In this document: positions 9,220-63,231 of the stretch, piece after piece | Numbering within the stretch: the first letter of the stretch is position 1 | Layout: the number at the start of each line of letters is the position of its first letter | Assembly (NCBI RefSeq): GCF_016863115.1 | Contig: NZ_BOOG01000021.1 | Span: forward strand, 1 to 64,000 | Direction: 5' to 3' | Source of the DNA: Sphaerimonospora thailandensis | Lineage (GTDB): Bacteria > Actinomycetota > Actinomycetes > Streptosporangiales > Streptosporangiaceae | DNA: 64,000 nt | Notes under the pieces: model-generated | What the model saw: the letters and a program-made list of their open reading frames with translations, nothing else | The model's database searches: none | Told to the model about the DNA's origin: nothing | Translations under genes and position numbers: made by a program

Positions 9220-9693
9220 ATGTCCAAGCGAGTGATCCTGGCCCTCGCTTCCGCAGCGGTGCTGTCCGCAGTGCTCCCCGGCGTGGCCGGTTATGTGACG
9301 GCCCAGTTCCAGGCCCTCGATCGGGCACGGGAGGAGCTCGCCCGTCTCCGGACCCAACTGCGCATGATGGAGCTGACGATCGAGCCGGCGGCCGCGCAGC
9401 GGTGCCGGGACGGCGAGTCCGCCGGCCGCCGCCACCGCCAGGAAGAGAACAGCATGCAGGTCCCGACGCCCCCGCGGACGGACAGTCGACCCTGGCAGGA
9501 CGCGGCATATGAGCGGACGGTCGGAGCGCCCTCCACGTGGAGCTCGCTCGTCGGCCCCACCCTCATGGCAAGGTCCGTACCGGAGCGGCCGCGTCCCCAG
9601 CCTGGCGGCGGGCCCGGCTGCTCGATGACCGGGGCGTACCTCGCTCAGCTTGGATTCGGCGCTTCCGCATCCCGCAACTGCCGCGAGAGATAG
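9220..9693 (+). CDS. Small membrane-anchored hypothetical protein
   Basis: 157 residues if read to the stop. The N-terminus has a clear hydrophobic segment (VILALASAAVLSAVLPGVAG) followed by a short amphipathic/coiled stretch (ALDRAREELARLRTQL); the rest is low-complexity. The ATG at 9220 has GAGGAG 9 nt upstream. The 3' end overlaps the convergent TetR gene by 49 bp, so the C-terminal half may not be genuine. Confidence 0.45.
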   Translation: MSKRVILALASAAVLSAVLPGVAGYVTAQFQALDRAREELARLRTQLRMMELTIEPAAAQRCRDGESAGRRHRQEENSMQVPTPPRTDSRPWQDAAYERTVGAPSTWSSLVGPTLMARSVPERPRPQPGGGPGCSMTGAYLAQLGFGASASRNCRER

Positions 9694-10310
9694 CCCCGCA
9701 CCAGCTGCTTCGCCTCGGCGACGATGTCCGGTGCGCCGTCGGAGTCATGACGGAAGGCGAGCTTCAGCACGGCGTCCCCGGCCTCGACGGCGACGAGAAT
9801 GGCACGGTCCAGCTCTTCGCTGTCCACGAGTCCGAACTCGGCGAGCAGTAGCGCACGGAGGCGCCCGGCGATCACCGTGTTGTTGTCGGCCACCGAGTCG
9901 AGGAGGTTGAGATCGAAGACATCACCGAAGTGGAGCGAGCGAAAGCCGGGAACATCCCGGTGCATCTCGACGTACTCGTCGATGATCGCGTCCACCGCGT
10001 CCCACCATCCGGCGTAGTCCTCGTTGATGAAGCGGCGCCCCACCCTCGCGACGAACATCTCGACGTTGCGCCTTGTCAGGGCGTCACTGAGGGCCCGCTT
10101 GTCCGGAAAGAACTGATAGACCGAGCCGACCGCGACTCCGGCCCGCTCGGCGACCCGGGTGGTGGTCAGCGCCTCGTAACCGACCTCGTCGAGCAGTTCC
10201 GCACATGCGTCGAGCATCCGCTCCACCCTCCGCGCACTGCGGCGCTGGGAGGGCCGGCGGCGCAAGGGATCTACCGTTCGCTGACTTTCCTTAACAGGCT
10301 GGCTGGACAC
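9645..10310 (-). CDS. TetR-family transcriptional regulator
   Basis: 221 residues. N-terminal TetR helix-turn-helix (about 30-75; ERAGVAVGSVYQFFPDKRALSDAL) and an all-helical ligand-binding domain. Target and ligand are unknown. The divergent side faces the 3' end of the CapA-like gene, so no obvious efflux target is adjacent. Confidence 0.9.
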   Translation of the reverse strand: MSSQPVKESQRTVDPLRRRPSQRRSARRVERMLDACAELLDEVGYEALTTTRVAERAGVAVGSVYQFFPDKRALSDALTRRNVEMFVARVGRRFINEDYAGWWDAVDAIIDEYVEMHRDVPGFRSLHFGDVFDLNLLDSVADNNTVIAGRLRALLLAEFGLVDSEELDRAILVAVEAGDAVLKLAFRHDSDGAPDIVAEAKQLVRGYLSRQLRDAEAPNPS

Positions 10311-10349
10311 CCATCTATCTTGCCCCCTTGGCCCCGCCTCGGTCAGCGC

Positions 10350-11462
10350 TTATCCATCAGCGGCGGAATTCGCCGCCGATCGCGTCGCCGACAACCCGGT
10401 GCAGCCCCGCAGCGCGCGATAGTTGCCCAGCGCCTGCCGCTTGGCGTCCCCCGTCAGCGGGATCGGAACGCCCCCGTTGATGCGAGCCGGCGTCCACTGG
10501 TCGCTCAGCACCTTGCGGCCGTTGATCCGCAGGGTCAGCACGCCGGTCGCACCGGTCTCCGGCCCCCAGTTGTAGAAGGCGAAGTTGCCCAGGCCGTAGT
10601 GGACGTAGGCCTGGCCGGAATAGCCGCCGCCGAGCAGGACGTGCGCATGGCCGCCCACGATCACGTCGGCGCCCGCCCGGATGAGCTTGTCCGCCAGACC
10701 GCGCTGGACAGGGGTGGGGCATTTGACCAGCTCCGCCCCCCAATGCAGGAAGACGATGACCGTGTCGGAGTTCTTGCGTGCCTGCCGTACCGCGCGGATG
10801 AGGCGGGTCTCGTCCTTGGCGGAGGCGAGGCCCGCCTTGCCCGGCCCCGCCGTCCAGGACTGGATGAACTCCGAGTCGAGCACCTGGGTGGCGCCGATGA
10901 TCGACACTCGGTTGCCCTTCACCGTCGCCCGGAACGGGCGGTAGGCCTCGGTGTCGTTCTTACCGACGCCGACCACCGGGAACCGGGACTTCTTGATCGC
11001 GGCGAGTGTGTCGGCGAGGCCGCTCTCCATGTAGTCCATGCCGTGGTTGTTGGCCATGGTCACGACGTCGACCCCGGCGGCCTTCAACGCGGTGAAGGCC
11101 GATGCGGGCGCCCGGAACGTGTACTGCTTCCCGGGGGCCGGGGTCCCGGCGGTGGTGATGGCCGTCTCGAGGTTGAGGGCCGTGAGATCCGACTTGCGCA
11201 GGACCGCGGCGATCGGGCCGAGGGCCGTACGCGGGTCGCGGTCGAGCCGGGCGCGCAGGACGCCCTCGAAGTGCACGTCGCCGGCGAAGGAGATCGTGTA
11301 CGGCTGAGGCCGCGGCTTGGGGGACGGCGGGGCGCTGGTCGCTCGCTGCTCCACGGGGGTGGGCGTCGGCTCCCCTTCGGCGGCGGTGCATCCGGCGGAG
11401 AGGAGGAGGGCGAGAAGGGTCACGGCAAGGGGCTCACGTCTCACGGCACCCGAGCATGCCAT
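10350..11462 (-). CDS. CapA-family lipoprotein (PGA_cap metallophosphatase fold)
   Basis: 370 residues from the ATG at 11462. A lipoprotein signal peptide (LLALLLSAGC lipobox) and Pro/Thr linker precede the CapA domain, with metallophosphoesterase-type motifs GDVHFEG, NLETAIT, ANNHGMDY and GGHAH. Family members are linked to poly-gamma-glutamate capsule export or wall metabolism; no capBC partners are present here, so the substrate is unknown. The ORF extends upstream another 68 codons into the fur promoter region; that extension is rejected because it lacks the signal peptide context. Confidence 0.88.
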   Translation of the reverse strand: MACSGAVRREPLAVTLLALLLSAGCTAAEGEPTPTPVEQRATSAPPSPKPRPQPYTISFAGDVHFEGVLRARLDRDPRTALGPIAAVLRKSDLTALNLETAITTAGTPAPGKQYTFRAPASAFTALKAAGVDVVTMANNHGMDYMESGLADTLAAIKKSRFPVVGVGKNDTEAYRPFRATVKGNRVSIIGATQVLDSEFIQSWTAGPGKAGLASAKDETRLIRAVRQARKNSDTVIVFLHWGAELVKCPTPVQRGLADKLIRAGADVIVGGHAHVLLGGGYSGQAYVHYGLGNFAFYNWGPETGATGVLTLRINGRKVLSDQWTPARINGGVPIPLTGDAKRQALGNYRALRGCTGLSATRSAANSAADG

Positions 11463-50648: not shown

Positions 50649-50797
50649 GACTTGGCCCGCTTCATGTAGGCGACCAGCTGCTCGGGGTTGGGACCGGGGA
50701 TGACCGAGACCAACTCCCAGCCGTCCTCACCCCAGTTATCCAATATCTGCTTCGTGGCGTGCACGAGCAGCGGGCCGGTAGTACGAATCCCGCGCAT
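50645..50797 (-). CDS. DUF4177 protein, copy A
   Basis: 50 residues (MRGIRTTGP...LLVHATKQILDNWGEDGWELVSVIPGPNP...AYMKRAKS, abbreviated). Nearly identical to copy B except for the first eight residues, with several AT-rich codons (ATA TTG GAT) unlike the neighbourhood. Start overlaps copy B's stop by one base (TAATG) and its stop overlaps ridA (ATGA), so the operon is tightly coupled. Confidence 0.85.
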   Translation of the reverse strand: MRGIRTTGPLLVHATKQILDNWGEDGWELVSVIPGPNPEQLVAYMKRAKS

Positions 50798-50955
50798 TAT
50801 TCCCCCTTCTCCCGCTTCATGTAGGCGACCAGCTGCTCCGGGTTCGGACCTGGGATCACGGTGACGAGATCCCAGCCGTCCTCGCCCCAGTTGTCGAGGA
50901 TCTGCTTCGTCGCATGGACCAGCAGAGGCACCGTGGCGTATTCGTAGCGCTTCAT
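50797..50955 (-). CDS. DUF4177 protein, copy B
   Basis: 52 residues beginning MKRYEYATVPLLVHATKQIL and sharing DNWGEDGW and PGPNPEQLVAYMKR with copy A. The N-terminus YEYATVPLL is the canonical DUF4177 start, so copy B looks like the ancestral gene. It is the first gene of the B-A-ridA operon and the last conserved-core gene before the mobile element. Confidence 0.88.
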   Translation of the reverse strand: MKRYEYATVPLLVHATKQILDNWGEDGWDLVTVIPGPNPEQLVAYMKREKGE

Positions 50956-56972: not shown

Positions 56973-57370
56973 TGTGGGGGTCACGCCTGTGGCTGTGGGC
57001 GAGCACTAAACGGCAGCTGGTCGACGACGTCGCCCGGCTGGAGCGGATGCTCGCCCACACCGACGCCCAACTGGCCAAGGCCCGCACCGACCTTGCTCGG
57101 GAGCGGCAGGCGGCGCTCGCACGCCGCCTCCCGGCCGAGTTGGCCACCGTGGCGGAGACGCTGCTCGGCACGGGCGGCATCACCCGGGACCTGAGCGCGG
57201 CGGCCGCCGCCCTGCGTACGGGCCAGCCCATCCGGGAGGCGGTACGGGGCCCGCTCGCGGACTTACTCGAGGACCACGCACACGAGCACAGCTCGTACGA
57301 CTGCCCGTGGGCTGAGCACATCTGCCCGGCAGGCCGTACAGCCCGAGCCCTGACTGGGGAGGCCAGATGA
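56972..57370 (+). CDS. Coiled-coil hypothetical protein
   Basis: 132 residues. An amphipathic N-terminus (WGSRLWLWASTKRQL) is followed by a long helix (VARLERMLAHTDAQLAKARTDLARERQAALARRL). HSSYDCPWAEHIC near the end has two Cys. TGATG and ATGA overlaps with its neighbours. Confidence 0.68.
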   Translation: MWGSRLWLWASTKRQLVDDVARLERMLAHTDAQLAKARTDLARERQAALARRLPAELATVAETLLGTGGITRDLSAAAAALRTGQPIREAVRGPLADLLEDHAHEHSSYDCPWAEHICPAGRTARALTGEAR

Positions 57371-58389
57371 CCAGGCCGATGGCGGAGTCGATGTCCAAGA
57401 CGCTGGCGCTGCTGGCGGCCGGTCACACCGTGCAGGACACGGCTGATCTCATGGACTGGCCGCTCGGCGCAGTCCGCAAACTCGTGATGAGCTGCAAGGG
57501 GTGGCTGGTCGGCTCCGACGGGCGGGTCTGCTGTCCCGGCGCTCGGGGCGGTCGGATCCCTGTTCCCGCCGGGGTCGACCGCGCCCACCTGGAGTGGGCG
57601 CAGCAGGTGAAAACCGGCGGGACGAAAGAACAACCCGCCGCTGATCCGCCGCTGACGATCGACCTGGCCCTATCCAGCATCCACGCCAACCCGGGCAACA
57701 TACGCGACGAGGTCGGCGACATCTCCGAACTCGCTACGTCGATCCGCGCGCACGGGCTGCTGCAGCCGCTCACCGTACGACCCCATCCCACAGTGGCCGA
57801 CAGGTATGAGTTGCTGGCGGGGCATCGCCGACTCGCGGCCGCTCGCGAGGCAGGCCTCGCAGTCGTTCCTGCGGTCATCCACGCTGACATGGATGATGCC
57901 ACCGCGATCGAGGTCATGATCGTGGAGAACGTTCAACGGCGCGACCTGAACCCGATGGAGAAAGCCGAAGCTCTCGGCAAACTCCGCTCCCGCGGCTACA
58001 CCAACGCGCTCATCAGCACCCGGACGGGCATTCCCGACTCCACCGTCTCCTACCTCCTGGCCCTCCTGGAGTTGGACGAGGCCGGACGTGAGAAGGTCCG
58101 CACAGGTGAGATCACCGCCGGTGAGGCCGTCGCCGCGGTGCGGAAGTTCCGCAAGAAGCAGCGGGTGAAGGCCGGTGGTAGCGACCAGGCGTGGGCCTGG
58201 GAGCCGGACTACCTCACGATCAACCACCCGCTGGCCAAGCGTGCTCAGCGGACCTGTGATGCCCGGGAGCACACCGCCCGGCGCCGGATCGGCAAGGTCG
58301 CCTGCGGCCAGTGCTGGGAGACCGTGATCCGCCAAGACGAGCAGATCGTCATGGCGGCCGCGCACCGGGACCGGGGGGCCACGGCATGA
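57367..58389 (+). CDS. ParB/Spo0J-family protein with N-terminal extension
   Basis: 340 residues. After about 95 N-terminal residues with a HTH-like segment (TVQDTADLMDWPLGAVRKLVM) comes a ParB CTPase core: ILANP-like start (LSSIHANPGN), ELLAGHRRLAAARE (GHRR nucleotide box) and VMIVENVQRRDLNPMEKA, then the KorB-type HTH (NALISTRTGIPDSTVSYLLALL). No parA is adjacent, so it is more likely a transcription regulator or DNA-binding scaffold than a partition partner. Confidence 0.9.
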   Translation: MTRPMAESMSKTLALLAAGHTVQDTADLMDWPLGAVRKLVMSCKGWLVGSDGRVCCPGARGGRIPVPAGVDRAHLEWAQQVKTGGTKEQPAADPPLTIDLALSSIHANPGNIRDEVGDISELATSIRAHGLLQPLTVRPHPTVADRYELLAGHRRLAAAREAGLAVVPAVIHADMDDATAIEVMIVENVQRRDLNPMEKAEALGKLRSRGYTNALISTRTGIPDSTVSYLLALLELDEAGREKVRTGEITAGEAVAAVRKFRKKQRVKAGGSDQAWAWEPDYLTINHPLAKRAQRTCDAREHTARRRIGKVACGQCWETVIRQDEQIVMAAAHRDRGATA

Positions 58390-59228
58390 GCCCGGAAACC
58401 CGCGCCGTACGGCACGGCACCCAGGCGGGCTACACCCTGGACGGCTGCCGTTGCCCCCGCTGCACCAAAGCTCATCGTGACTACCAGAACATGCGCAGCC
58501 GTCAGATCGCCTACGGCCAGTGGAACCCCCTCGTCGACGCCGACCCCGTCCGGGAGCACCTCGCGCTGCTGGCCGACCAAGGTATCGGCTGGCGTCGCGC
58601 TACCCGCCTCGCGGGTGTTTCCCGGTACACCGTCCACCGGCTGCTGTACGGCACCCCAGCGGCAGGAAGGCCGCCACCGAAACGCATCAAGCCGAAGACA
58701 GCAGAGAAACTGCTCGCGGTACGCCTGGACCTGGACACGCTCCCCCCGTCGTCCGTGATCGACGGCACGGCCACTCGGCGCCGTATCCAAGCCCTGTGCG
58801 TCGTCGGCTGGTCCGTCGCCGAGCAGGCCCGCCAGATCGGCATGTGGCCGGCGAACCTGAACGCTGTCCTGACGAGCAAGCGGGTGGGCGTCGCTGTCGC
58901 CCGGAAGGTCCGGGACCTGACCGAACGCCTGTGGAATCAGCCGCCGCCGGAGACGACCAGATCAGAGCGGAAGTCAGTGTCGTACACCCGCGGCCGCGCG
59001 GCACGTAAGGGCTGGCTGCCGCTCGCGGCGTGGGACGACGACCTGATCGACCTGCCGGACGCGTGGCTCGCTGCGGAGTTGCAGCGCCGGGTAGCGGAGA
59101 TGGACCTGACTGAGCTTGCCCGCTGCGACCGGTACAGGCGGGAGCACGGGGAGCGGTCCCCGCTGGTCGTGGCCGGGGCGGAGGAGTACAGGCGGCGCCG
59201 GGCTGCAGCACGCAGGGGGGCCGCATGA
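58386..59228 (+). CDS. DNA-binding protein with GCRCPRC motif and HTH segments
   Basis: 280 residues. N-terminal [24 protein letters not shown] is a motif seen in many actinophage and element proteins (possible zinc site). Two HTH-like segments follow ([41 protein letters not shown]), then a basic C-terminus. Probably a regulator of element genes. ATGA overlaps with its neighbours. Confidence 0.78.
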
Positions 59229-59494
59229 TGCTCGCGCTGGAAGCCCACTACCCCTGCCCCGTGTGCGGGTGCCGCCTGCGCACCGTGATGACCGCCGAGG
59301 CGCGGATCAACAAGCGGTCCCTCCGCGTGGAGCCGTTCATCGGAGTCGCCCCTGGCCCGTGCCCCGAATGCGGCGCCACGGCCCAGCCCCCCGACCGGCT
59401 CACGTACGAACTCACCGCCAAGTCCGCCGCCGACGTGGCCGCGTACCGGGCCAAGCGGTGGCCCGAACTCCTCGAGGAGGCCCCGCCCCTGTGA
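59225..59494 (+). CDS. Zinc-ribbon small protein
   Basis: 89 residues. CPVC (11-14) and CPEC (about 46-49) make a zinc-ribbon pair; a charged helical C-terminus follows. Common type of small actinophage/element protein with no assigned role. GTGA overlap with the clamp-FtsK gene. Confidence 0.78.
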
Positions 59495-60489
59495 CCCGTA
59501 TCGACATGACCACCCGAGAGTTACACGAGTTGATCGACCCGGTGCTGCCACACACGGTCAACGATCCGACCCTGCCCGAGCTCGGCGTCATCCGTATCGA
59601 GACCCGCGCAGATGTGCTGTACGCCGTAGCGACCGACCGGTACACCCTCGGCGCGGCCCGGCATCCCGTCGGCGACCCGGTTGACGACGTGGTGATCGCG
59701 ATCGACCGGTCCGAGGCCGCCGCGATGCTGAAGCTGTTCAAGCACAGCAAGGACGACGACCCGCAGCTGCGGCTGGTCATCGACCGGGTCCCGGTGCCGG
59801 TGACCGACCGAGGCAACACGGTCGAGTCGTTGGGGCTGACGGTCGACTCCGAGGACGGCACTCGCCTGATCCTGCACGGCCGGGCCCAGTCGGTGCTCGG
59901 CAATTGGCGTTCGCTGGTGGGCCGGATCCTCGCACGGCCGAACGTCCCGGCCGCCCCGGCGCTGTTCCTCACCCCGACGTACCTGCGCCGGTGGACTAAG
60001 GCGGCACGGAAAGGGGAGCGGCTGTCGGTGTTCGTCGGGCCAGAGCCCACGGACCCGCTGCTGATCCAGGCAGAGAACCACTTCATCGGGATCTGGATGC
60101 CGGCCGGTCACCTGGACGCGGGTGAGGAACTGCCGGGCAGCCCGTGGCGTCGCGAGCTCCTGGTCGACGAAGACGACCGGGAGACGGCCGAGCAGCTGCT
60201 GCGGACCCCGCCCGCGCGAGAGCCACTCGACACCGATGAACCAGGTGGCGACCTCGAGCTGTTGGTGGAGGCGGCCGAGCTTGTGATGTCCACCCAGTTG
60301 GGCTCGACCTCGATGGTCCAGCGCAAACTCCGGGTCGGCTTTGCCAAGGCTGGCCGACTGATGGACCTGCTGGAGAGCTGGAACGTCGTCGGGCCTGCGC
60401 AGGGCTCCAAGGCCCGCGACGTCCTGGTCCCGCCGGACCAGGCCGACGAGATCGTACTCAAGATCCGCAGTGGGGAGGCGGCGGAATGA
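59491..60489 (+). CDS. DNA sliding-clamp-like / FtsK gamma-domain fusion protein
   Basis: 332 residues from the GTG at 59491 (GTGA overlap; ATG at 59506 possible). Residues about 7-205 carry beta-clamp features: [16 protein letters not shown] (46-58) and the terminal [18 protein letters not shown] (188-205), but only about two of the three DnaN sub-domains fit. Residues 254-320 match an FtsK gamma (winged helix, KOPS-binding) domain: [20 protein letters not shown] and [26 protein letters not shown]-tracking or site-recruited replication/segregation factor is inferred; the combination is unusual. Confidence 0.75.
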
Positions 60490-61920: not shown

Positions 61921-62161
61921 CGACCAGGTCGTGGTCCGCCTAGACGCGGACGCAGAGGGGCTCCACAAGGCTGCGGCCATGGCCCTGAACGTGTACCGCG
62001 ACGGCGTGCGGCAGGAGTTCGCCCGCGAGGTCGCCGCGACGTTAACCGCGATGCGTCCGCGCCAGGTCGACGGCGCGGACGTGCGGGTCATGGACGACAC
62101 CCTGCAGATGGCCGTCCGGACGGTCCTGCGGCTGGCCGGCCTGCCAGAGCCGGAGGTGTGA
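61910..62161 (+). CDS. Hypothetical element protein
   Basis: 83 residues from a GTG overlapping the previous gene by 11 bp. Helical throughout (HKAAAMALNVYRDGVRQEFAREVAATLTAM). TGATG overlap with the DUF5131 gene. Confidence 0.6.
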   Translation: MASSDQVVVRLDADAEGLHKAAAMALNVYRDGVRQEFAREVAATLTAMRPRQVDGADVRVMDDTLQMAVRTVLRLAGLPEPEV

Positions 62162-63231
62162 TGGGCGACAAGAGCGCGATCGAGTGGACCGACGCGACAT
62201 GGAACGTCGTGACGGGCTGCACTCGGATCTCCGACGACTGCCAGGTCTGCTACATCGAGCGGACCCCGCCGTTCCGGATGGAGGGCCGCCGCTTCGACGG
62301 CCCGCATATCGGGGCGACTACGGGTGTCCGCCTGCACCCGGAGCGGCTGGACCAGCCGCTCCGCTGGCAGAGGCCGCGCCGGATCTTCGTCAACAGCCTC
62401 GCCGACCTGTTCCACGACGAGGTGCCCGACGCGTACATCGCCGAGGTATTCGCCGTCATGGCGCTGAGCCCACGGCACACCTTCCAGGTGCTGACGAAGC
62501 GGCCTGCGCGGATGCGGGCACTGATGAGCAGCGACACGTTCAGCGGCCAGGTCGCGCGCCTCACCGTTGCGATGGCCGAGGCCGAGCCCGGGCCGCCGTA
62601 CCTGCCGGAGCATCTCGTCGTGACGCACGGCCGCCCGTGGTGGCCGCTGCAGAACGTGTGGCTCGGTGTGAGCGCCGAGAACCAACGCTGGGCCGACCTT
62701 CGTATCCCCGTTCTGCTCGATACGCCGGCCGCCGTCCGGTGGATCTCTGCCGAGCCGTTGCTCGGCCCGATCGATCTCCGCTACCTGGCCGGAGTGGACG
62801 CCCTGTTGCCGGACTGGATGGGCGGCCCTGGCGGCGGAACTGGCGCCCCTCACCCGCTGCTCGACTGGGTGGTTGCCGGTGGCGAGTCCGGTCCGGGTGC
62901 GAGGCCGATGCACCCGGACTGGGCTCGCTCCCTGCGGGACCAGTGCCAGGACGCCGAGGTGCCCTTCCTGCTCAAACAGTGGGGCGGGTGGGAGCCCATC
63001 GGCCCGTTGTACGGCGACGACGACGAGACCGCCGACGCCCACATGGAGGCCGTGGTGATCGAGGTCCACGAGAACCGTCGCGTGATCCAGCTGGAGCGAA
63101 GCGGCTACATCGCCGAAGGCCACCAGCCCACCGACGACCGGACGTGGCTGATGGCGCGCGTCGGTAAGAAGCGTGCCGGGCGGCTGCTCGACGGCCGTGT
63201 CTGGGACGAGTACCCCCGGGAGGCCCACTGA
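62161..63231 (+). CDS. Phage Gp37/Gp68-family protein (DUF5131)
   Basis: 356 residues. AIEWTDATWNVVTGC followed by the C-x6-C-x2-C pattern (CTRISDDCQVC) defines the family, thought to be related to radical-SAM-like iron-sulfur proteins. SLADLFHDEVPD, VLTKRPARM, WLGVSAENQ and VAGGESGPGARPM complete it. Widespread in phages and mobile elements; activity unproven. ATG at 62161 (TGATG) preferred over GTG at 62158. Confidence 0.93.
   Translation: MGDKSAIEWTDATWNVVTGCTRISDDCQVCYIERTPPFRMEGRRFDGPHIGATTGVRLHPERLDQPLRWQRPRRIFVNSLADLFHDEVPDAYIAEVFAVMALSPRHTFQVLTKRPARMRALMSSDTFSGQVARLTVAMAEAEPGPPYLPEHLVVTHGRPWWPLQNVWLGVSAENQRWADLRIPVLLDTPAAVRWISAEPLLGPIDLRYLAGVDALLPDWMGGPGGGTGAPHPLLDWVVAGGESGPGARPMHPDWARSLRDQCQDAEVPFLLKQWGGWEPIGPLYGDDDETADAHMEAVVIEVHENRRVIQLERSGYIAEGHQPTDDRTWLMARVGKKRAGRLLDGRVWDEYPREAH

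Follow-up and report, generated by a model that had tools for sequence, protein, structure and literature searches.

A prophage protein of Sphaerimonospora thailandensis that joins a reduced beta-clamp module to an FtsK gamma domain, a candidate DNA-tethered adaptor

A prophage of the actinomycete Sphaerimonospora thailandensis encodes a 332-aa protein in which a reduced module of the bacterial beta sliding clamp is joined through a linker to an FtsK gamma domain. The gene occupies 59491..60489 on the forward strand of the window (the whole 64,000-nucleotide stretch analysed, bases 1-64000 of the 124,814-base contig NZ_BOOG01000021.1), and its parts were delimited with Pfam, PHROG, an AlphaFold2 (AF2) model and VIA structural comparisons. 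We judge the chances to be about equal that this ring-less derivative is, or is not, a DNA-tethered adaptor for clamp-binding proteins in phage DNA metabolism. The peptide pocket appears largely kept, ring parts have been lost and a DNA reader has been added, so that an adaptor is the simplest function. Sliding clamps are defined by encircling DNA, and a ring-less group with a pocket and a reader would separate recruiting from the ring. It would also account for a phage gene family that now carries three incompatible public names.

The open reading frame begins at a GTG codon, and its first four bases are shared with the preceding gene. Residues 1-136 (59491..59898, forward strand) correspond to beta-clamp domain II, with two beta-alpha-beta-beta-beta units according to AF2, VIA and hhalign, and have block-mean pLDDT values of 79-97. 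Residues 137-207 (59899..60111, forward strand) correspond, in AF2 and in alignments, to a reduced domain III, which consists of a helix (139-148) followed by the second beta-alpha-beta-beta-beta unit. AF2 places a linker at residues 208-250 (60112..60240, forward strand), with block-mean pLDDT of 47-56 across residues 211-250. The FtsK gamma winged helix, identified with Pfam and phmmer, comprises residues 256-313 (60256..60429, forward strand); within it, residues 277-296 (60319..60378, forward strand) contain the predicted recognition helix (284-296), as judged from AF2 and comparison with the host FtsK. The model as a whole has a mean pLDDT of 82.9 and a pTM of 0.65. Both coding halves are under purifying selection, judged against the gamma-bearing relatives L078, L079 and L080 (dN/dS ∼0.21-0.36 for the clamp half and 0.25-0.45 for the gamma half). 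The values against the more distant L084 (∼0.65 and ∼0.55, respectively) are rough, with pS near 0.5.

Sequence profiles and structural models show homology of residues 1-207 with the bacterial beta clamp. The DnaN-like motifs picked out by an earlier, sequence-only reading of the window are present, VATDRYTLG at residues 46-54 and DPLLI...IWMP at residues 188-204. TDRYTL (residues 48-53) is the counterpart of E. coli T172-L177, which belongs to the peptide pocket and lies in domain II, and IWMP at the C-terminal end of domain III is the counterpart of E. coli VVMPMRL. The Pfam check which that reading had proposed gave a divided answer. DNA_pol3_beta_2 stays below its cut-off of 27 bits (E 0.03, 15 bits; 17.2 bits in a second search), which is nominally not significant, and a single-sequence scan would for this reason have dismissed the clamp half; profiles, PDB comparisons and structure nevertheless make the clamp match significant. 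The PHROG family phrog_947, ‘DNA polymerase processivity factor’, matches residues 4-92 with E 2.5e-6. An eight-row phage profile of residues 1-222 finds matches at E≤1e-4 in 356 of 394 class-level genomes, the one studied here among them, and each of the 22 loci examined from this search (L039-L060) has frames that a DnaN model matches at E≤1e-10. Against PDB sequences at E≤1, a nine-row profile of relatives returned 15 matches, all beta clamps (best E 1.1e-6), and a seven-row integrative-element profile returned 42, of which 37 were beta clamps (best 4.6e-5) and five were unrelated, with E values of 0.2 or worse.

The structural comparisons point the same way, the N-terminal fold of the monomer model being clamp-like. 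The best 50 Foldseek rows for the window model are all beta clamps (top E 2.1e-9), and VIA superposes residues 1-207 on E. coli beta 125-366 with a Z score of 19.9 and an rmsd of 2.1 over 184 aligned residues. A separate model of a Gordonia phage relative gave Z scores of 17.5-18.9 against domains II-III of several clamps. A few VIA rows align to domains I-II instead (1vpk for the window model; 1vpk, 8pay and 4trt for the Gordonia relative), as do some sequence matches of the integrative-element profile. The beta domains resemble one another, and the assignment to domains II-III follows the majority of VIA rows together with ATDRY in domain II and the C-terminal MP/MPMR in domain III.

The matched span of E. 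coli beta covers 242 residues, yet 184 align in VIA. By global alignment (hhalign -glob -norealign), domain I is absent and E. coli residues 248-262 and 277-315 have no counterpart; helix 263-276 and the entire second half of domain III are kept. The edges of the missing stretches vary with the alignment mode, being 251-265 and 277-308 with -glob, and 252-273, 277-292 and 297-312 with -loc -mact 0.05. The default local mode aligns 78 columns, in domain II only, and local alignment without realignment gives 120 columns ending at residue 143. Because the local alignments are this short, the mapping of domain III depends on the global and low-threshold modes, the models and the motif positions. 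All 30 aligned relatives have 11-17 residues in place of 68 in E. coli. This count excludes L028 (clamp match over residues 1-132 only, followed by different sequence), L078 (a copy of L061) and L088 (a copy of L015), and the alignment is also without L022-L027, L037 and the phage-record loci; L022, L024-L026, L037 and four phage rows are included in the tree described below.

The sequence-only reading had seen room for about two sub-domains rather than three, the size of PCNA/gp45 subunits. Fewer than three is correct, but the alignments and the 30 relatives leave about one and a half. The two-domain ring subunit has to be given up, as the protein consists of beta domain II and a domain III lacking ∼54 residues, and thus has neither the three domains of a DnaN subunit nor the two complete domains of PCNA/gp45 ring clamps. 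Neither PF00712 nor PF02768 matches the protein at E≤1, and in its own genome PF02768 is found on host contig C31 only. We take I272/L273 and I305 in domain III of E. coli beta to pair with domain I of the partner subunit. The stretch around I305 is missing here, and I272/L273 align to V152/P153 (hhalign -glob -norealign). With the residues in these roles, the DnaN ring interface as known, between domain I and III', appears to have lost both of its faces, since domain I and ∼54 residues of domain III are absent.

Several copies might still form a true small ring clamp by closing through a new interface, with the gamma domain parking the ring at motifs. The clamp fold and a net charge less acidic than that of DnaN would suit such a ring, and there is no full DnaN in the prophage, the two DnaN loci of the genome both lying on contig C31. 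We nonetheless consider a small ring unlikely: domain I and ∼54 domain III residues are missing, and with them, it appears, the known interface, and three beta-alpha-beta-beta-beta units per chain should not allow a 12-unit ring to be split into equivalent head-to-tail protomers. The mean net charge is -1.1 for the clamp module and -10.7 for DnaN domains II-III. As a test of DNA encirclement helix charge was uninformative, three of the four helices being equally or more positive than those of DnaN and one less. Taken together, the less acidic module and the helix charges do not indicate a loss of DNA contact. One of the two DnaN loci of the genome is a second DnaN-like gene (L098; C31:25161-25484). 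It is separated from the other dnaN of C31 by ∼54 kb and has a 440-aa open frame scoring 84 bits for the central domain and 100.6 bits for the C-terminal domain.

The adaptor reading leans on the peptide pocket, which in E. coli beta we take to comprise L155, T172, L177, P242, V247, V360, M362 and P363. With these roles, its counterparts between domains II and III seem largely kept, and in the window protein the pocket would lie around residues 31, 48, 53, 201 and 203. Those of L155, L177 and V360 are hydrophobic in each of the 30 relatives, the T172 counterpart is T in 27 and the P363 counterpart P in 25. Conservation is lower for V247 (hydrophobic in 21 of 30), M362 (M in 17 of 30) and P242 (P in 10 of 30). 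As a set, the pocket columns exceed randomly drawn ones in conservation only slightly (993 of 20,000 draws as low), and the pocket claim thus leans on position more than on statistics. Clamp-binding motif and pocket are treated in sections of PMC9690074 and PMC3762901.

A survey of C-terminal Q..LF motifs near the clamp gene was discarded as evidence. The 712 proteins surveyed contain four, where shuffled sequences predict 0.385, but the enrichment vanished once regions far from the gene in these genomes served as controls (4 of 383 proteins near the gene versus 2 of 361 in distant regions; Fisher p 0.69). None of the 65 proteins of the own prophage has the motif. An acidic fourth-last letter (Q.[DE]LF), spotted post hoc, occurs in all four motifs near the gene and in neither of the two controls.

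The FtsK gamma domain claimed earlier for residues 254-320 was borne out, with PF09397 matching residues 256-313 (E 6.6e-21, 74.2 bits, cut-off 30.6) and phmmer relating it to the solved gamma domain 2ve8 (E 2.7e-6). It is identical to the gamma domain of the host's own FtsK at 53 of 75 positions, and residues 277-296, including the predicted recognition helix, are fully identical. Given this identical stretch, the window gamma should read the same sites as the host FtsK. Other phage gammas, including those of the Gordonia rows compared, differ from the host FtsK within the stretch. No ATPase motor matches the window protein at E≤1; clamp and linker precede the gamma domain.

Identity with the host FtsK over residues 277-296 would also suit a decoy or antagonist, whose pocket would soak up host clamp-binding proteins and halt or redirect host replication, and whose gamma domain would deliver it to host KOPS. 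Phage clamps are toxic when overexpressed, according to the relevant parts of PMC11373665, PMC9339283 and PMC11797047. Examples are Waterfoul gp48, a ‘DNA Pol III sliding clamp’ of 376 aa (PMC9339283), and Adephagia gene 35, a sliding clamp in the text and an exonuclease in the table of PMC11373665; membership in the present group is not established for either. However, the recognition helix of several other phage gammas differs from that of the host FtsK, and seven of the 15 other carriers in the host's family have loci resembling integrative elements, where host shutdown would be costly. We regard a decoy as distinctly unlikely.

By tblastn, 170 phage records match, of which 46 cover at least 80% of the query. 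Among the matches listed, 22 Gordonia rows show 92-99% query coverage, 27-34% identity and the same fusion. A whole-protein scan of genome contigs gave no locus and a second scan one locus. The clamp part is present in 16 of 341 genomes of the host's family, own genome included. The seven integrative-element-like loci (L070-L076, clamp at ∼9.5-10.5 kb within each) were called on gene content other than integrases. All seven have a short clamp alone, without gamma, downstream of a 747-936-aa gene; six have no called gene in the gap between the two, and one has two small ORFs there. The 747-936-aa gene was identified in two loci, with FtsK gamma in L070 and as FtsK/SpoIIIE-like in L074. Five of the seven have a prim-pol cluster (F2) gene downstream of the clamp (Pfam check in L075). 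The remaining eight carrier loci are phage-like where recognizable, and three of them have gamma. Viral contigs contributed 15 and 4 loci from two scans, some duplicating loci already collected.

The gamma domain is present in 15 of 39 tree rows. Parsimony requires six or more changes of its state on the tree, and well-supported branches alone force four or more; by this reconstruction the fusion has been repeatedly gained or lost. In one protein (L083:5001-5822; the same protein in L064, ∼9564-10781) an Lsr2 DNA-binding domain replaces gamma (PF23359, E 8.9e-10). An odd relative is the 175-aa neighbour of the L066 clamp gene (L066:8677-9204), which falls in the same cluster as that gene. The best 50 viral structure models include 16 of 185-280 aa that resemble the window protein, Rhodococcus phage REQ2 among them (E 5.6e-14), and a 202-aa viral protein among the models listed has a TM-score of 0.78 by target length.

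Several relatives lie among recombination genes. The Streptosporangium canum relative (L061/L062), which is 73% identical over residues 1-222, has a YqaJ exonuclease, RecT, a DnaQ-type exonuclease and a RuvC-like gene as neighbours. Directly upstream of its clamp-gamma gene is a phage-encoded complete DnaN with all three Pfam domains over cut-off (L062:8552-9664), which already provides this locus with a ring clamp. A RusA gene lies near the L067 clamp. Mycobacterium phage Fishburne has the order RecE, RecT, hypothetical gene, matching gene and RusA; the very long branch of Fishburne gp48 (3.19) leaves the kinship of its clamp part unsure.

In the adaptor reading, domain II would form a pocket for clamp-binding motifs of the QL[S/D]LF type together with the C-terminal half of domain III, and the sequence-specific DNA binding of FtsK gamma would replace topological linkage to DNA. 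The tethered adaptor would gather host or phage polymerase, ligase, nuclease and resolvase at chosen sites, in action timed to phage replication or recombination. We infer a monomeric or otherwise non-ring state, as well as peptide binding, DNA binding and recruitment. A DNA-binding part that varies (gamma, or Lsr2 in L083), the complete DnaN next to the L062 gene and the recombination genes near several relatives speak in favour. Counted against it are the 24 of 39 rows without gamma, the negative controlled Q..LF survey, charges that do not oppose DNA contact, and the own prophage, which is without any member of the relatives' recombination-gene clusters. A clamp parked on DNA by its own reader is plausible. 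The wider proposal falls a little short of an even chance in our estimation: that a group in mobile elements turned the ring clamp into a pinned adaptor, keeping the peptide pocket and losing the ring parts, with exchangeable domains (FtsK gamma, Lsr2) attaching it to DNA and recruiting to sequences rather than to primed ends.

The location in a mobile element was upheld, with the gene in the early region of a prophage whose genes span ∼51 to 98 kb of the contig. They include an HTH regulator (52101), a replication initiation protein (phrog_2149, E 3.6e-50), terminase, portal, head protease, capsid and endolysin. Three genes on the forward strand precede the clamp gene: a ParB-like gene (57367..58389; TIGR00180, E 1.5e-30), from which it is separated by the other two, a phage-type gene of phrog_1590 (58386..59228; E 1.3e-46), and a gene for an 89-aa protein with paired CxxC motifs (59225..59494), seen in the sequence, which overlaps the start of the clamp gene. 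The ParB had been described as lacking a ParA, and an AAA_31 (ParA-type) search indeed found no match within the element; the two AAA_31 matches of the contig lie outside it, at 114-116 kb. All five Gordonia phage loci viewed likewise have a ParB-like gene upstream, separated from the clamp gene by one or two others. Window positions 62158-63231 encode a DUF5131 protein (E 3.5e-94), which also matches a radical SAM mobile-pair family below threshold. Beyond the window, the head maturation protease (C21 78990-80762) has a C-terminal part matching the ADP-ribosyltransferase family phrog_3895 (E 9.5e-16).

The nearby ParB-like genes, in the window and in Gordonia phages, would be in keeping with a segregation, roadblock or packaging factor, in which gamma at KOPS-type sites would meet host FtsK/XerCD or mark phage DNA and the clamp would be a scaffold. 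So would the FtsK gamma found on the small terminase of Bacillus phages (in the part of PMC8190038 that describes them) and the position of all seven integrative-element-like stubs downstream of the 747-936-aa gene, which was identified as FtsK-related in L070 and L074 only. Against such a factor stand the recombination and replication genes around several relatives and the largely kept pocket residues, and we hold it to be highly improbable beside the tethered adaptor.

The region at 106-113 kb of the contig contains an integrase (phrog_95, E 2.5e-90), which also matches DNA invertases and is therefore of the serine type, and an FtsK/SpoIIIE-like gene; these two suggest that the prophage may have a second, conjugative element joined to it. 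In a search for attachment sites, the longest repeat that the left end (50.6-51.5 kb) shares with 97.5-101.7 kb has 13 bases, and with 112.8-114.7 kb it shares no repeat of 12 or more. A small gene, presumably of the DUF4177 family, is present in two 123-bp copies (83% identical) at the left end of the insertion (window 50651-50928), and MTKWEYVTV, the apparent start of that family, overlaps the integrase start at the right end (C21 ∼113.17 kb). The small gene is a possible attachment site for a ∼63-kb insertion.

The sequence-only reading knew of no described protein with this architecture. No paper describing a clamp-FtsK gamma protein turned up in the open literature, which was the main scope of the search, so that an earlier description in subscription papers is possible; the fusion itself, however, has already been deposited in public databases, where Gordonia phage entries give it conflicting names. 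These are ‘DNA polymerase III sliding clamp’, ‘FtsK-like DNA translocase’, ‘RusA-like Holliday junction resolvase’ and hypothetical protein. NC_030930.1, NC_031099.1 and NC_016652.1 carry ‘RusA-like Holliday junction resolvase’ in RefSeq, and ‘FtsK-like DNA translocase’ or ‘DNA polymerase III, beta subunit’ in GenBank. That an FtsK-like translocase or a RusA-like resolvase is the correct identity, as GenBank and RefSeq entries and PHROG 12598 have it, we consider scarcely credible. The domain searches contradict it, with no ATPase motor and, in the window protein and ten relatives, no match to the RusA domain PF05866 at E≤1, and the fold is that of a beta clamp. The RefSeq ‘RusA-like’ names were apparently mis-propagated. 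In the literature seen, the role of single gamma genes in phages is called unknown in a passage of PMC8190038, part of PMC3706429 deals with phage FtsK proteins with divergent gamma, and PMC3364876, in its relevant part, concerns the host clamp only.

Among known systems, the protein is like DnaN in its fold, in the order of its parts (domain II, then the second half of domain III) and in the positions of the pocket motifs; unlike DnaN, it has no domain I, lacks ∼54 domain III residues and has an additional FtsK gamma. It shares the clamp-gamma fusion with the Gordonia family (RayTheFireFly gp60, Hedwig gp56, Nyceirae gp49), although the Gordonia rows compared have a different recognition helix. 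The best viral structure match among the models listed is the 266-aa ‘DNA polymerase III, beta subunit’ of Rhodococcus phage REQ2. UL42 acts as a monomer, and in UL42 and UL44 DNA is bound by the clamp part's own surface, unlike in the window protein, which has a separate DNA-reading domain. A clamp fold without a closed ring would nevertheless be common to the window protein and viral processivity factors of this type, UL44 being described as a C-shaped dimer in PMC9690074; this is a working parallel, and no kinship is claimed. In PMC3218068, on actinomycete integrative elements, DNA_pol3_beta_2 appears as an abbreviation in a figure legend of the Frankia section; the likeness to these genes is drawn through the seven element loci described here and, for the Frankia genes, by name only. 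The seven integrative-element relatives stand alone without gamma, unlike the window gene. Finally, FtsK_gamma is fused to the small terminase in the Bacillus phages Sam46 and Sam112, in the section of PMC8190038 on these phages; as in the window protein, FtsK gamma is joined there to another phage protein, but the partner protein and the host phylum differ.
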